Below, in pieces: positions 18,397 to 24,766 of a stretch of 52,659 nucleotides of DNA. Numbering within the stretch: the stretch's first letter is position 1; each line of letters opens with the position of its first letter. The stretch comes from Phycisphaerae bacterium. Lineage in GTDB: Bacteria > Planctomycetota > Phycisphaerae > UBA1845. The position numbers and the translations under genes are program-made. The notes beneath the pieces are model-generated. The model saw only the letters and a list, made by a program, of their open reading frames with translations. It was not told the origin of the DNA and did no database searches. The stretch is taken from contig JAJDDT010000087.1 in the NCBI GenBank assembly GCA_029260165.1, positions 1-52,659 on the forward strand, read 5' to 3'.

Positions 18397-18778
18397 ATTT
18401 CACTGTCCCTCGGTGCGTTATTGGACCGCTCGCAGAGCATGAATGGTCGTCTTGCCCATTCCGATGGTTCGCGCGTGCCCGGGTGCGAATACAGGAGTAA
18501 TACGCGATCCACCAACAGTTTCGGTCAGGCAGTGCGTCTGCCATCGAAAACAATTGCTCTGGAACGGAAAAAACGTCAAATAGCGATAATCAGTCGCGTT
18601 TTTGCCCCCTGACGATGACCCGCCCCTGCCGGAAACCATCGCAAAATGGGTCCGATTCCGAATTGCAATCGTGGGCTTTTGTCGGGTTTTGGCCTGGAGT
18701 GGGGGGCGTAGGGGTTTTACAATCGGCTTGGGTTTCAGGGCTGAAACGGTCGATAGGACCAGGATGGAAGTTCCGATA
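18397..18778. other. Divergent intergenic region upstream of FHA gene
   Basis: No gene supported. TACAAT at 18718-18723 could be a -10 box for the FHA gene. Just after it a short dyad, GTTTCAG / CTGAAAC (about 18732-18747), lies in the expected leader. Nothing firm in the half next to the chemoreceptor. Confidence 0.4.
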
Positions 18779-21700
18779 ATGTCAAGACGTGAGGCGGATG
18801 CGGGTGGGACGGGGGTTGATGTCCTTTGGTCCGATACGCGCGTGGATCGGGTTGTGTATGAGCAGCCTCGGTTGCCGGGGTCGTCGCCGACGGCCTGGAT
18901 CAACATTGTTGATGCGAAGCGGGGGTCGTTGCAAAAGACGCGGTTGAGGCACCCGGTGATGTTGGTGGGGTCTCGCAAGGGGTGTCAGATTCGGACGGAA
19001 TCCTCGCGGGTGTCACCGGTGCATTGTGTGTTTGTTCAGACCGGTGACGGCGTGTTTGTGCGGGACCTGGTGAGTCGAACGGGGACCACGGTTGGCGAGG
19101 ACCAGGTGGGCGAGATCGGTCTTGAATCTGGTGATCAGGTGGGTGTGCATCGGTGGTCGTTTGGGGTGGAAATTGAGGGGGTGGATCCTGCGGCGACGCT
19201 GGCTGCTGTTGGGTGTGGTGATTCGTTGACGTTGTCGGGTGAGGCGGGTTCGGGGCGGTGTGGTGGAGAGGATTCGTCGTTGCTGATCGGGCGTGATCGG
19301 CGGTGTGATGTTTCTGTTGATCATGGGAAGGTGTCGCGGGCGCATGCGTTGGTGTTTCCGTTGGCGGGTGGTTGGGCGATTGCGGATTTGTTGAGTGCGA
19401 ACGGGACGGTGGTGAACGGTGAGCGGATTTGCGGGGTGGGTGTGCTGCGTGCGAACGACGTGATTCGGATTGGGGAGGCGGAGTTTACGGTTGTGTTGGC
19501 GTCGGAGGAAACCGGGACGAGCGAGGTGTCTGTTTCGCAGGAGTTTGTGATTCAGTTGGGGACGACCGGTCGGGATGATCGGGTGTGGCTGGTTGATCGG
19601 GAAGAGGAACTCGGTCGGCAGGAAAGCGAGATGGCTGCGAGGGTTGCGGCGGTCGAAGGCCGTGAGACGGTGTTGGCGGAGCGGTTGGGGGAGGTTTTGT
19701 CGCGCGAAGAGGCGTGCGTGGTGGATCGTGAGAGATTGGAGGCGTGTGGGGCTGAGCTTGACGAGCGGTCGCGGGAATTTGATGGTAAGTGGGATGCGGT
19801 TGGTGATCGCGAACATGCGGCGGACGTTTTGGCGACGAAGTTGCGTGCTGAGGCGGAGCGTCTGAAATCAGAGCGGGCGGCGGTCGAAGCGTTGCGTGGG
19901 GACAATGAGGCGGAGTGTGCGGAGGTTGTGAAGGCTCGTGAGGAGGTTCGGGCGGAGCGGTCCGCGATAGAGGGGGAATTGGCTGAGTTGCGGTCGCTGC
20001 GGTCGGGTGCGGATCAGGCGAGGGCGACGTTGGGGACGTTGGCGGAGAAGGAATCGGGCTTGGCGGCTGGGGAAAAGAAGCTGGCTGACGCATTGGCTGG
20101 TTTGCAGAAGCGGGGCAGGGTGGTTGCGGCTGCTGAGAAAAAAATTGAGGCGGAGCGGAAATCGTTTGCGCGCGAGCAGTCCGTGGCTGCGAAGGCGTTG
20201 ACGGTTGCACAGGGAAAGGTGAATGCGCGCGAGGGGGCGGTGCGGAAACGCGATGCGGAGATTGCGGAGAGGGAGGCGTTGGTCGCGGGTTGTGAGGTGC
20301 GGGTTGCTGATGCGGAGAAGGGTGTCGAGCGCGGGAAGTCGGAGGCAGCGAGTAAACGTGCATCGCTGGCGAAGCGTGAATCGAAGGTCGAGGCGGATGA
20401 GCAGCGTGCGGCTGAGCGTGTGCAGAAGGCTGACGAGCGTGAGGGGGTGGTGGCGGAGCTGGAGCAGGAGTTGGAACGTCGGCGGGTGGAGGTTGAGGAG
20501 CGACGGCGGGCGGTTGAGGGGATGGAGGGTGAATTGGGTGCGCGTGAATCGGATGTGGCGGACGAGCAGCGCAGTCTGACCGGGGAGGCTGAGGAACTGA
20601 GTCGGTGTCGGGCGGAGGTTGAGGGACGTGAGGGTGAGCTGGACGAGCGGGAGTTGTCGTGTGATCGCCGGGTGGTGGCGTTGGATCGGCGTGATGCGGA
20701 TTTGCAGCAGGAAGCGGAGTCGCTGGTGGGTGCGACAGAGGATTTGCAACGATTGCAGGGGGAAATGACGGAGCGTCAGGCGGGTTTGCAGTCGTTGGAA
20801 CAGATGTTGGGTGATCGTCGGGCGCTTCTTGATGAGCGTGAGGCATTGTTGGCGACAGAGGCGGATCAGTTGGGGAAGAAGAATCGCGATCTGGAATCGG
20901 TGCTGACAAGACATGATGCGAAGATTCGTGAGGCGCGGGAGGCGACGCGGGAATTGGAGCGGGAGCGGGCGGCGGTTGATGAGCGGATGATGGAAGTGGA
21001 TCGGCGGGGGAAGAAAGTTGATGAGCGAACGAAGGACGTGGGTATTCGCGAGGCAGCCGTTGCGTTGGCGGATCGCGATATGGAGAAGCGTCGTGGGGAG
21101 CTGGATGAGCAGGCGGATCGTCTGGAGGCGGTGTCCGAGCGGGTGACGCACGATCGTGTGGCGGTTGAAAAATCGCTGTCAGAGGCAGAGCAAGCCCGGG
21201 TTGAGGTTCAGGAGCGGATAAAGAAACTTGCGGAGCAGGATGAGAGGTTCGATGGGTCTGAGCGTGCGCTGGCGATGGATCGTAAGGCGTTGAAGGAGTC
21301 GGCTGAGCGGTTGCGTGACCATCAGGGGCGACTCGAAGCGGAGTCTGCGGCGCTCGGGAAGCGGGAAGAGGGTTTGGTGGATGCGGAGGAGTCGTTGCGT
21401 TGTCGGAGGCAGGAAGTTGATGAACAGGTGGAGCGGATGCGGGCTGATGGCGAGCAGTTGGCGGGTGAGTTGAAGGGGCTGGAACGGCAGGAGAGTGAGG
21501 CGGGTGTTCGTGCGAAGGAATTGTTGGGATTGGAAAAGCGGTTGGAGGATGAGCGGTTGGTGTTGGTGGAACGTGGGGATGGTTTGCGTGGAGAGCTTGG
21601 AAAGCTGACTGGAAAAGCGTTGCAACTGGATGATCAGGAGAGATCGCTGGCGGACCTGTCCGAGCAGGCGGACAAGCGGTTGCGGGCGTTGATCGAGCGG

Positions 21701-22033
21701 GAGGAGGGACTGGAGCATCGCGAGCGTGCGCTGGCCAAACGTCGCCGACGTCTGCGTGATTTGATCAACGAAGCCAGCGAACGAATCGCCGAGGCTGCCG
21801 TTGGTGGATCGGAAAGCGATGGTGATCGGCGGTTGTTCGGTCGTGTCGAATCGACGGGCGTGGGTGGGCGACTGGCGAGGGCGGGTTGTGAGCAGGAGGG
21901 TGTCGCGTTGACGTTTGATTTTCGCGATGGGGGTGACGGTGTGTCGGACAAACATAATCTGCCCAGGGTCGGCGGGCTGGATGGGTCGGTGAAGCGTCTT
22001 GCATCGCGTTTGGCCCGGGATCAGCGTGGTTGA
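18779..22033 (+). CDS. Double-FHA protein with very long coiled coil
   Basis: A 1084-residue cytoplasmic protein. FHA domain 1 spans about residues 58-130 (VGSRKGCQIR, then SRTGTTVG). FHA domain 2 spans about 167-240 with canonical GRDRRCDV, SRAHA and SANGTVVNG. FHA domains bind phosphothreonine. From about 272 to 1000 the chain is charged Glu/Arg/Ala heptads with repeated RE..VAERE and DEREA-type segments, an SMC-like rod without ATPase heads. FHA1 lacks the canonical S-R-x-H and may be degenerate. The start is ATG 18779 with GGAAG eight bases before; ATG 18764 is also in frame. The next gene encodes a J-domain/TPR protein, so a phospho-dependent scaffold pair is plausible (inference). Confidence 0.85.
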   Translation: MSRREADAGGTGVDVLWSDTRVDRVVYEQPRLPGSSPTAWINIVDAKRGSLQKTRLRHPVMLVGSRKGCQIRTESSRVSPVHCVFVQTGDGVFVRDLVSRTGTTVGEDQVGEIGLESGDQVGVHRWSFGVEIEGVDPAATLAAVGCGDSLTLSGEAGSGRCGGEDSSLLIGRDRRCDVSVDHGKVSRAHALVFPLAGGWAIADLLSANGTVVNGERICGVGVLRANDVIRIGEAEFTVVLASEETGTSEVSVSQEFVIQLGTTGRDDRVWLVDREEELGRQESEMAARVAAVEGRETVLAERLGEVLSREEACVVDRERLEACGAELDERSREFDGKWDAVGDREHAADVLATKLRAEAERLKSERAAVEALRGDNEAECAEVVKAREEVRAERSAIEGELAELRSLRSGADQARATLGTLAEKESGLAAGEKKLADALAGLQKRGRVVAAAEKKIEAERKSFAREQSVAAKALTVAQGKVNAREGAVRKRDAEIAEREALVAGCEVRVADAEKGVERGKSEAASKRASLAKRESKVEADEQRAAERVQKADEREGVVAELEQELERRRVEVEERRRAVEGMEGELGARESDVADEQRSLTGEAEELSRCRAEVEGREGELDERELSCDRRVVALDRRDADLQQEAESLVGATEDLQRLQGEMTERQAGLQSLEQMLGDRRALLDEREALLATEADQLGKKNRDLESVLTRHDAKIREAREATRELERERAAVDERMMEVDRRGKKVDERTKDVGIREAAVALADRDMEKRRGELDEQADRLEAVSERVTHDRVAVEKSLSEAEQARVEVQERIKKLAEQDERFDGSERALAMDRKALKESAERLRDHQGRLEAESAALGKREEGLVDAEESLRCRRQEVDEQVERMRADGEQLAGELKGLERQESEAGVRAKELLGLEKRLEDERLVLVERGDGLRGELGKLTGKALQLDDQERSLADLSEQADKRLRALIEREEGLEHRERALAKRRRRLRDLINEASERIAEAAVGGSESDGDRRLFGRVESTGVGGRLARAGCEQEGVALTFDFRDGGDGVSDKHNLPRVGGLDGSVKRLASRLARDQRG

Positions 22034-22138
22034 GTTGTGACGCGACGGGTTCTGCGTTCCGCGATAGCATGGTCGGGGCAAAATACGATTGGGGAATTTG
22101 ATTGGCGGTGCTGGTTGGGGGCGGACGGACGATCGCAT

Positions 22139-24766
22139 ATGTCGTGGTTGAATCGCATGTTGGGTGGTCCGGATGAGGGGGGTGATTTGGGGTCATCTCA
22201 GGGGTTGGAACGTGTGCTCGAAGCGGCGGCTGGAGCAGGGGGCGATCGCGAGACGACGGTGAAGCTGGCGCGTTTTTTCAACGTGGCCTGTTTTCTGTCG
22301 CACGTTGAACGCGTTCGTGTGCGAAGCTACGCCTGTCACCATCATCAAATGCTGAGGCTGGTTGATGCGATATGGCATCAGTTGGGGATTCCGTCCGACC
22401 GTCTGTCGGCTGATTTTTCGTATGCGCATTTTCGGGCGCGTGCGCTGGCGGATGAGTCGGCTGTCGCGGTGGTGCTTGAGGCTGCGACGGTGGGGCATGA
22501 CGTTCGGTTTTTTCTGGTGTCGATGGCGTGGCGGTTGTTTATTGATGGTGCGGTCATTGATGACCGGGCTGTGGATACGATGGTGTCGGTTTGTGCGGAC
22601 CTTGGCATGACGCGTGCGGATGTTGAGGCGGCTGCCGTTCCATTTGTTCGTGACGTGCGCCCGCCGACGCAGGGTCGTCGCGCTGAGTTGTGTCGGCGAC
22701 TTGACCTGAGACCGGAGGCGGCTGCGACGGATGTTCGTCAGGCGTTTCGCAAACTGAGTCACAAATATCATCCTGACAAACATCGCGGTTCCGATCCGGT
22801 ATTGGTTCAATTGGCTGAGCAACAGTTCAAGCGTGTTCGTGAAGCCTATGAAGCGTTGACAGGGTCGAGCGGTATCGAGGGCGCGTCGTTTTTCGGGTTG
22901 TCCGGCAGTGGTTCGCTGGTGCGCGGGCGTGGGCAGGTCGTGTGTTATTTTTGCAATGAACCCGGACGGGTTGATGACGATGAGGGGGCGGGTTTGTCGC
23001 GATGCGGGACGTGCGCGTCGCTGCTCTGTTTTGATCGTGAGACAGCCGAGGGGTTTCGCAAGCGGTGGCGGTCTGTTCAGGGGCGTCGCGGAGGGGATTC
23101 GGATGGGTCGGTGTCGCAACTGGTGGATCCGGGGCGTGCGTCAAGGGCGTACGAACACGGCGTGGGGCTGTTGAGGTGCGAGGAGTACGAAGCCTCCGTC
23201 GATCCGTTTCGCGAGGCGATTCGATGCGATGCGAATCATGCGGGTGCGTATTTCAACCTGGGGGTCGCGTTGGGTCGGTTGAATCGACATGAGGAGGCGG
23301 TTGAGGCGTTTGTGCGGACAGTTTCGCTCGAACCTGAACATGCGACCGCCTATCTGAATCTGGGATTGTCGTATGCCAATTTGCAACGCTATGCGAACGC
23401 GATCAAGGGTTTGTCCAGAGCGATCGAGCTTGTTCCGAATCATGTCACGGCCCATGTGACGATGGGACATGCGCTTTGGAAGCTGGGGCGAAACAGGGAG
23501 GCGGTCGGTGCGCTGGAGAATGGATTGCGGTGTGATCCGAGGAGTGCGTCGGCGCGCCGGCTTCTGGGTCACCTGCACATGGAATCGGGGCGGTACGACC
23601 AGGCCGTCGAATGTTTTCGCCGCGTGATCCAGATCGAGCCCGATGAGGCTGCGACGCATGGCGATCTTGGAATGTGTTATGTGGAATTGGGACGCGATGC
23701 GGATGCGTGCAGGGTTTTGGAGCGTGCACGATCGTTGGGATCGGTTGACGAGCGTGTTCTGACGAGGCTGGGGGATGCGTATCTGGCGACCGGGTGTTTC
23801 GAGGATGCGGTGGAGGTTTTTTCGCAGGTCTTGCGGGGCGAACCTGATCATGTGGCTTCGATGTTTGGACTTGGGTTGGCTTGTTCTGCGCTCGATCGAC
23901 ATGAACAGGTTGTCGAGGTGTTGGGGCGACTTGTTCAGACGTCCTGCGAGGATGTCGAGGCGTTGCGATTGTTGGCGCGTGCTCATGTGTCGCTGGGGCA
24001 TTTCAAGCCTGGTCGGGAAGTGGCGGGACGTGTCGTGGCGTTGGATGAGCAAGATGCGGATGGTTGGTTCGTGTGTGGTTTTTGCGACATGACGCTGGGG
24101 CGGATCGAGGAGGCTGTCCGGGAATTTGAGCAGATGACGACGCTGAGGTCGAATGATGTGGCGGGGCAGTACAACCTCGGTTTGTGTTACAAACGGATGG
24201 GGCGATGGGGTGAGGCGGTGTCAGCCTTGCGTCGAGCGGCGGAGTTGGTGGGCGATGATGGTTCGGTGTGGTTCAACCTTGGTGTGTGTTTGAATGAAAC
24301 GGGTGAGCGGGCTGAGGCGGTTGAAGCGCTGGACCGCGCGGTTGCCTGCGATTCGGGGGATCGGGCTGCCTGTGCGTTGGCGGGTCGCATTCGTTTGGAG
24401 ATCGGGGACGTGGAGGCTGCTGTAACGACGTTGGAGAAGGTTGTTGCGTTGGATGCGAACGGGTCAGCCGGGTGGTTCAATCTGGGGTTGGCGCGATGGC
24501 GGGCGGGGCAGGTCGATCGAGCGATTGAGGCGATGGAGCGGGGACTGGAGATTTCGCCTGAAGACGGTGACGCGCACCGGCAACTGGGTCGGCTATACCA
24601 TGATGGTGCGCGGTTTGAAGAGGCTGCACGGGCGTATACCGAAGCCATCCGATTGAACCCCAACGACGCAGAGGCGCATCTGTGGTTGTCGCTGGCGTTT
24701 TCCAGACTCGCGCCGGAAGATGAACCGTCGGTGGAACCTGCTGAATCGGAAAAAACACCTTCCTAA
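22139..24766 (+). CDS. J-domain protein with zinc site and about 16 TPRs
   Basis: An 875-residue protein. Residues about 40-170 are helical and TerB-like, as in DjlA (tentative). A J domain at about 184-242 carries the HPD triad at 211-213 in HKYHPDKH, required to stimulate DnaK ATPase. A four-cysteine zinc site follows (Cys269, 272, 289, 292: CYFC and CGTC). From about 330 to the end are 15-16 tetratricopeptide repeats of 34 residues (AYFNLGVALGRLNRHEEAVE and so on). The ATG at 22139 is preferred over an open frame from 22037. It follows the FHA gene by 105 bp. A scaffolding co-chaperone recruiting DnaK is likely; client proteins are unknown. Confidence 0.85.
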   Translation: MSWLNRMLGGPDEGGDLGSSQGLERVLEAAAGAGGDRETTVKLARFFNVACFLSHVERVRVRSYACHHHQMLRLVDAIWHQLGIPSDRLSADFSYAHFRARALADESAVAVVLEAATVGHDVRFFLVSMAWRLFIDGAVIDDRAVDTMVSVCADLGMTRADVEAAAVPFVRDVRPPTQGRRAELCRRLDLRPEAAATDVRQAFRKLSHKYHPDKHRGSDPVLVQLAEQQFKRVREAYEALTGSSGIEGASFFGLSGSGSLVRGRGQVVCYFCNEPGRVDDDEGAGLSRCGTCASLLCFDRETAEGFRKRWRSVQGRRGGDSDGSVSQLVDPGRASRAYEHGVGLLRCEEYEASVDPFREAIRCDANHAGAYFNLGVALGRLNRHEEAVEAFVRTVSLEPEHATAYLNLGLSYANLQRYANAIKGLSRAIELVPNHVTAHVTMGHALWKLGRNREAVGALENGLRCDPRSASARRLLGHLHMESGRYDQAVECFRRVIQIEPDEAATHGDLGMCYVELGRDADACRVLERARSLGSVDERVLTRLGDAYLATGCFEDAVEVFSQVLRGEPDHVASMFGLGLACSALDRHEQVVEVLGRLVQTSCEDVEALRLLARAHVSLGHFKPGREVAGRVVALDEQDADGWFVCGFCDMTLGRIEEAVREFEQMTTLRSNDVAGQYNLGLCYKRMGRWGEAVSALRRAAELVGDDGSVWFNLGVCLNETGERAEAVEALDRAVACDSGDRAACALAGRIRLEIGDVEAAVTTLEKVVALDANGSAGWFNLGLARWRAGQVDRAIEAMERGLEISPEDGDAHRQLGRLYHDGARFEEAARAYTEAIRLNPNDAEAHLWLSLAFSRLAPEDEPSVEPAESEKTPS

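Follow-up and report, generated by a model that had tools for sequence, protein, structure and literature searches.

An FHA coiled-coil gene and a DjlA-like J-domain/TPR gene side by side in a few Phycisphaerae: a possible route from protein phosphorylation to Hsp70

Background

J-domain proteins choose where DnaK works, and to our knowledge few bacterial members of this family take their address from protein phosphorylation. FHA domains that read phosphothreonine carry the motif residues GR, SxxH and N(G). TPRs and a J domain are combined within one protein in the eukaryotic co-chaperones DNAJC7 and DNAJC3/p58IPK, where the TPRs precede the J domain; we know of neither a TerB region nor an FHA partner in these proteins. 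DjlA is described as a co-chaperone of DnaK and contains a TerB-like domain whose role is not known (PMC11709261). GAP1-N2 GTPase systems, described mainly for actinobacteria and firmicutes, include HSP70, GrpE and FNIII-DnaJ or FNIII-TPR proteins (Kaur et al. 2020, PMC7159879), and one reported gliding machinery contains FHA and TPR proteins as separate components (PMC3169522).

The present analysis concerns a stretch of 52,659 nucleotides (the window; contig JAJDDT010000087.1 of the Phycisphaerae assembly GCA_029260165.1), which belongs to a genome of 4.4 Mb in 119 contigs. Two adjacent genes on its forward strand encode an FHA coiled-coil protein (gene 1) and a TerB-like, J-domain and TPR protein (gene 2). 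Like DNAJC7 and DNAJC3/p58IPK, gene 2 unites TPRs and a J domain in one protein. The locus also resembles the GAP1-N2 neighbourhoods, as that source describes them, in linking Hsp70 co-factors to scaffold modules (PMC7159879); unlike in those systems, the neighbours scanned here included neither a GTPase nor an FNIII protein. A first-pass annotation, made from the sequence alone, had named no described system with this pair, in agreement with a search of the openly licensed literature by title or abstract start, which returned no paper on an FHA rod with a J-TPR partner. The pair is plausibly a variant of DjlA-type co-chaperone targeting, with a proposed function that is partly supported. The reading preferred here, to which we give a probability of about 0.4 as a whole, is that genes 1 and 2 form a soluble two-part device for targeting Hsp70.

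Results and discussion

The locus and its gene models

The features of the two genes and of the sequence preceding them are as follows, all on the forward strand.

18721-18783, +, leader and start region of gene 1 (one mismatch in 63 bases relative to genus-mate G001)
18764-22033, +, gene 1, FHA-FHA-coiled-coil protein, from its probable start (ORF call, Pfam, comparison of starts)
18962-19141, +, FHA1, degenerate: GS for GR, TGT for NGT, S-x-x-H kept (motif inspection, Pfam placement)
19283-19474, +, FHA2, canonical: GR, SRAH, NGT (motif inspection, Pfam placement)
19649-21808, +, heptad coiled-coil rod, residues 291-1010 (hydropathy periodicity, absence of proline)
21908-22030, +, conserved C-terminal tail, from the LTFDFR motif (21908-21925) to the penultimate Arg (tail comparison)
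22139-24766, +, gene 2, TerB-like, J, four-Cys and TPR protein of 875 aa, from its probable start (ORF call, orthologue starts)
22244-22654, +, TerB-like helical region (Pfam TerB in relatives, alignment, DjlA profile match, model)
22700-22861, +, J domain with YHPDKH (Pfam DnaJ, alignment)
22943-23014, +, four invariant cysteines, here CxxC-x16-CxxC, a predicted zinc site (alignment)
23129-24709, +, 15 TPRs and a capping helix (Pfam, model, Foldseek)

Both open reading frames of the first-pass annotation are present, with adjusted starts. The length of 1084 residues that it had given for gene 1 holds from ATG 18779, while the likelier start at ATG 18764 gives 1089 aa; the latter is preferred because the N-terminus MEVPIM matches that of G001 and resembles MEPSLP, LETPAP and LEPSLP in three other rods. 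The frame of gene 2 is open from GTG 22037, and this start was discarded, since MSW opens five of the six gene 2 orthologues (own included) and corresponds to ATG 22139, probably the true start, which is separated from the gene 1 stop by 105 bases.

The leader of gene 1 contains an inverted repeat, GTTTCAG-GG-CTGAAAC, with perfect 7-bp arms at 18732-18747, and is nearly identical to that of G001 although the aligned region overall is only 73% identical. Its 24-base core, allowing two mismatches at most, occurs once each in the own genome and G001 and in none of 38 other genomes; a regulon signal was rejected on this distribution (once per genome, 2/40 genomes). A viral origin was likewise rejected, as a scan of viral contigs gave a single match, confined to the J domain.

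Conservation of the pair

The nearest named matches of gene 2 are MAGs of Phycisphaerae and Planctomycetota. When the own genome and 99 relatives were searched, most of the N-terminal unit was matched in six of the 100 (own, G001, G014, G021, G030 and G040) among the matches listed; the others listed start at residue 132 at the earliest and score no higher than 36.3 bits, in line with what J domains would give. A profile search across 114 genomes of the order recovered gene 2 in the same six, together with one TPR-less protein in G496. The orthologues share 33-50% identity with the window protein.

The first-pass annotation had made its proposal depend on the two genes being neighbours in relatives, and they do recur side by side. 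A complete FHA coiled-coil gene lies just upstream of gene 2, on the same strand, in four of the six genomes (own, G001, G021 and G040). The G030 contig begins inside the upstream ORF, which matches the G040 rod over 602 residues (46% identity, E 4e-100) and is clearly, by this alignment, a rod orthologue whose FHA head would lie beyond the contig end. In G014 the ORF upstream of gene 2 is coiled-coil-like and is cut by the contig end, leaving 322 aa. Its best match to the paired rods, with E 2e-6, is to the G014 head on contig C61, and is little better than its best match to unpaired coiled coils (E 1e-4); its heptad period of 3.53 was reached by 15 of 200 shuffles. This ORF is nonetheless probably a rod, because its C-terminus (DLDRETSKPFSQLRG) resembles the tails of the other paired rods, albeit with no LTFDhR. 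Adjacency of rod and gene 2 is thus firm in five of the six genomes and probable in the sixth.

The flanking genes differ between genomes: a heme oxygenase gene follows the pair in the own genome and G001, and two other downstream genes are common to G021 and G030. The pair has thus been retained in changing surroundings. Of the seven flanking proteins scanned, none was a kinase; the own genome as a whole gave 29 Pkinase matches, some of which are pieces of one gene, and six HSP70 matches.

FHA heads and coiled-coil rod of gene 1

The two FHA domains previously noted in gene 1 were recovered by Pfam as two stretches (E 2.9e-26), and only the second keeps all the motif residues associated with phosphothreonine reading. 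All five paired heads have GR and S-[RK]-A-H in FHA2, and four of them the N of NGT, which is C in G040; FHA1 retains SxxH but has lost the aligned Arg of GR and the N of NGT. The first-pass reading of the pair as a phosphothreonine-responsive scaffold finds support from FHA2 and not from FHA1.

The coiled coil of about 700 residues that had been proposed is borne out by a stretch of 720 residues (291-1010) that lacks proline and shows a 3.50-residue hydropathy period, a periodicity whose strength none of 200 shuffles matched. All four complete paired rods behave alike, with a period of 3.50-3.51, no shuffle of 200 reaching the observed strength in any of them, and zero or one proline. Coiled coils extend by about 0.15 nm per residue, which corresponds to a rod of roughly 100 nm.

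Domains of gene 2

Pfam DnaJ matches gene 2 with E 2.5e-10, and many TPR models match it too. The J domain with intact HPD and the four-Cys zinc site of the first-pass annotation both find support in an alignment of 11 sequences (six orthologues and five TPR-less relatives), in which YHPD[KR]H and the four cysteines are invariant; the binding of zinc is predicted. Since the J domain is followed by the four-Cys site and 15 TPRs, it is internal and not C-terminal.

An AlphaFold2 model built from the 11 rows has a mean pLDDT of 86.5 and a pTM of 0.50, and is weak at residues 242-248 and 315-330. Where about 16 TPRs had been counted, the TPR solenoid itself stands and the number shifts: the modelled part (residues 331-857) consists of 15 helix pairs and one cap helix. 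By E-value, the top PDB match found with Foldseek is the TPR superhelix of O-GlcNAc transferase. The whole model matched TPR-type and other solenoid chains among the 50 matches listed, and it therefore gives no separate test of the TerB-like region. Pfam TerB was not found on the window protein at E 0.1 among the best 25 of 35 families; the TerB-like assignment made earlier holds through relatives, as Pfam TerB matches four of the five TPR-less relatives scanned, two of the four being nearly identical, and through the profile alignment with DjlA described below.

Invariant columns number 46 in TPRs 1-6 and 14 in the remaining repeats, a pattern that is only suggestive as a map of docking, because the later repeats contain gaps in the shorter orthologues.

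These data bear on an explanation in which the rod would be a scaffold of the cytoskeleton or envelope, gene 2 would be a scaffold protein of the TPR kind, the FHA heads would have ceased to read phosphate and the J domain would matter little. The degeneracy of FHA1 fits such a role, as does the J-like region of the other FHA-Hsp70 locus described below, where HPD survives in just 8 of 14 sequences. Against it, gene 2 itself keeps HPD in six of six orthologues, down to 33% overall identity, its J domain is invariant at 19 of 64 columns versus 9 of 136 in the TerB region, and the motifs of FHA2 are kept, which together make a pure scaffold the most improbable of the explanations weighed here.

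Kinship with DjlA

When the 11-row profile was aligned with E. coli DjlA using hhalign, the two matched over 230 columns, from the membrane segment to the J domain (18% identity, E 1.5e-16). Gene 2 is like DjlA (b0055) in that a TerB-like region is followed by a J domain with HPD. The two differ at both ends: DjlA has a single N-terminal membrane helix (maximum hydropathy 2.24), whereas a membrane-like segment is absent from the first 60 residues of all six gene 2 orthologues (maximum 19-residue hydropathy 0.53-0.79), and the J domain of DjlA is C-terminal, where gene 2 carries the added four-Cys site and 15 TPRs. The FHA rod as a neighbour is a further difference from DjlA.

TerB-J-four-Cys proteins of about 306-321 aa with no TPRs occur in MAGs of Kiritimatiellae, Verrucomicrobia and Lentisphaerae, and in the planctomycete G496. 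The gene 2 profile matched an ORF in nine loci (L092-L098, L100 and L102); in two of them the best stretch starts at the first profile position, in the other seven further along. These proteins share the N-terminal unit of gene 2, including HPD and the four cysteines, but have a glycine-rich N-terminal segment, no TPRs and no match to the FHA-head profile in loci L092-L102 or L189. Their N-termini reach a maximum hydropathy of 1.03-1.53 in the six tested, versus 2.24 in E. coli DjlA, the value of 1.53 belonging to the glycine-rich N-terminus of the protein in G496, a genome of the same order as the window. Neighbours identified at the TPR-less loci are GH97 genes, a TyrRS gene and a TPR protein.

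On a broader scale, the 11-row profile at a threshold of 1e-12 matched 268 of 392 genomes of the phylum, mostly over the J domain only among the matches listed, with G106, G291, G278 and G118 matching most of the TerB-J-Cys unit. No FHA-head match was found in the seven phylum loci read, in two of which (L155 and L156) the simple ORF caller missed the gene. In other planctomycete genomes, TerB-J-like proteins of 252 aa with glycine-rich N-termini were observed (loci L159 and L160).

Gene 2 looks DjlA-derived because the TerB-J-Cys unit exists with no TPRs and with a glycine-rich, DjlA-like N-terminus. The most economical history that we infer starts from a DjlA-like protein with an added zinc site, which would have given up its anchor and acquired TPRs alongside the rod. 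That gene 2 acts as a co-chaperone of DnaK is the natural reading of its sequence, given HPD in all six orthologues and the likeness of its TerB-J unit to DjlA.

The rod tail and FHA coiled coils without gene 2

Further FHA coiled coils are frequent among the relatives. In a tree of 34 double-FHA heads, the five available paired heads form a seven-row clade with those of G035 and G015 (support 100/99). The paired label requires two changes on this tree, which as such neither shows nor rules out a single origin of the pairing. The G015 rod runs off its contig, in a genome that is 85% complete. The unpaired G035 rod falls within the paired clade, in a genome that is 92% complete and gave no full match to gene 2; the gene downstream of it (L071:3619-4560) encodes a 313-aa protein with a receiver domain at its C-terminus and no assigned domain in its N-terminal half. 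Rods are therefore not bound strictly to gene 2.

In the stretches read, no gene 2 match lies beside the long FHA coiled coils of G035 (1147 aa), G051 (1605 aa) and G058 (1543 aa). Another FHA coiled-coil family adjoins an M28 peptidase gene in G040, G030 and G021 (loci L077, L078 and L079). A general system of FHA coiled coil plus J-TPR protein was considered and set aside, as the FHA coiled coils of this other clade adjoin M28 peptidases (3/3 scanned), and others lie near MutS or other genes.

Paired rods differ from these proteins in their tails. An LTFDhR-like motif (LTFD-hydrophobic-R) near the C-terminus is present in five of the six paired rods (all but G014) and in none of 11 unpaired FHA coiled coils, and a penultimate Arg in six of six versus 0 of 11, both patterns having been chosen post hoc, after the tails were viewed. 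An HMM of the tail gave nothing significant against the 11 unpaired proteins (best E 0.07). The tail is plausibly a candidate docking peptide for gene 2. A read-through model nevertheless spoke against docking of the tail on the TPRs: with the final 99 residues of the rod fused to gene 2, residues 19-157 had pLDDT below 50 and no docking was predicted, a weak test though a negative one, because the tail is present in only three of the six alignment rows.

The rival taken most seriously is that gene 2 serves as the dedicated assembly chaperone of the rod, with DnaK folding, solubilising or remodelling it and the FHA heads having an unrelated scaffold role. Full gene 2 was never seen without an upstream coiled coil (five firm cases of six, one probable), while rods and other FHA coiled coils do occur without gene 2, and the conserved tail would be a plausible docking peptide in this case as well. 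The long FHA coiled coils of G035, G051 and G058, with no gene 2 match in the stretches read, speak against a need for such a chaperone, and on balance we consider it unlikely.

Alternatively, the two genes may be transcribed together and do related work independently, as two stress proteins might, without touching each other; this would fit the lack of docking in the read-through model and the small number of cases, six with one uncertain. Adjacency that persists across orthologues only 33-50% identical and in different genomic settings is harder to reconcile with this explanation, as is a tail motif found in paired rods only (5/6 versus 0/11), and separate jobs appear quite improbable.

Proposed role of the pair

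In the preferred reading of an Hsp70-targeting device, gene 2 would be a DjlA-type co-chaperone in which the membrane anchor has been exchanged for a solenoid of 15 TPRs, and its J domain would stimulate DnaK through HPD. The TPR arm would dock this co-chaperone onto the FHA rod, onto clients, or both. Gene 1 would provide a rod of roughly 100 nm, the FHA2 head of which may bind partners marked with phosphothreonine, and DnaK would thereby act where a Ser/Thr kinase has acted, phosphorylation coming before the chaperone. The device is supported by adjacency in differing surroundings, the invariant HPD and cysteines, the kinship with DjlA and the tail motif, and also by the second double-FHA/Hsp70 pair and the 29 Pkinase matches in the genome. 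Weighing against it are the degenerate FHA1, the read-through model with no docking, the lack of a kinase among the seven flanking proteins, the G035 rod without gene 2, the weak G014 ORF, the only mildly hydrophobic N-termini of the TPR-less proteins, and rarity (6 of 114 genomes). Taken together, the pair suggests a phosphorylation-guided sending of Hsp70 to chosen targets in a few uncultured planctomycetes. If true, this would offer a testable route from Ser/Thr kinases to Hsp70 via a co-chaperone whose anchor was swapped for a TPR arm.

A second FHA-Hsp70 pair in the same genome

Double-FHA modules meet the Hsp70 machinery a second time in this lineage, as a different gene pair. On contig C64 of the own genome (L161:6838-9575), the end of a gene for a 585-aa HSP70 paralogue overlaps by 4 bases a gene for a 327-aa J-like-FHA-FHA protein. 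As with genes 1 and 2, a double FHA is linked to Hsp70 machinery; unlike them, the J-like region and FHA domains are fused in one protein with no TPR match, and the partner is the HSP70 paralogue itself. The J-like region matches Pfam DnaJ with E 4.7e-5 and 23.9 bits, under the cut-off of 27.8.

At E 1e-20, this gene was found in 16 of 60 genomes, own included. The match covers nearly the whole length in 13, in two of these as two pieces, and is partial in G028 and G029 (FHA part) and G056 (J-like part). An HSP70 homologue lies within the adjoining 1.5 kb in all 13 complete cases and in G056, but neither G028 nor G029 has one there. As a J domain, the J-like region may be inactive, given that HPD is kept in only the 8 sequences mentioned above (of 13 complete and G056).

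The second pair makes the idea of an FHA-Hsp70 link more than a single curiosity. It is conceivable, if doubtful, that double-FHA modules have been wired to Hsp70 twice, with Ser/Thr kinases deciding the sites at which DnaK-type chaperones work and the rod setting the reach. The two kinds of gene may also tend to occur together: the J-like-FHA-FHA gene is present in all five J-TPR genomes of the sample versus 8 of the 31 remaining genomes of the family (p 0.003 by Fisher's test, uncorrected for kinship, with G028 and G029 counted as absent and G040 outside the sample).
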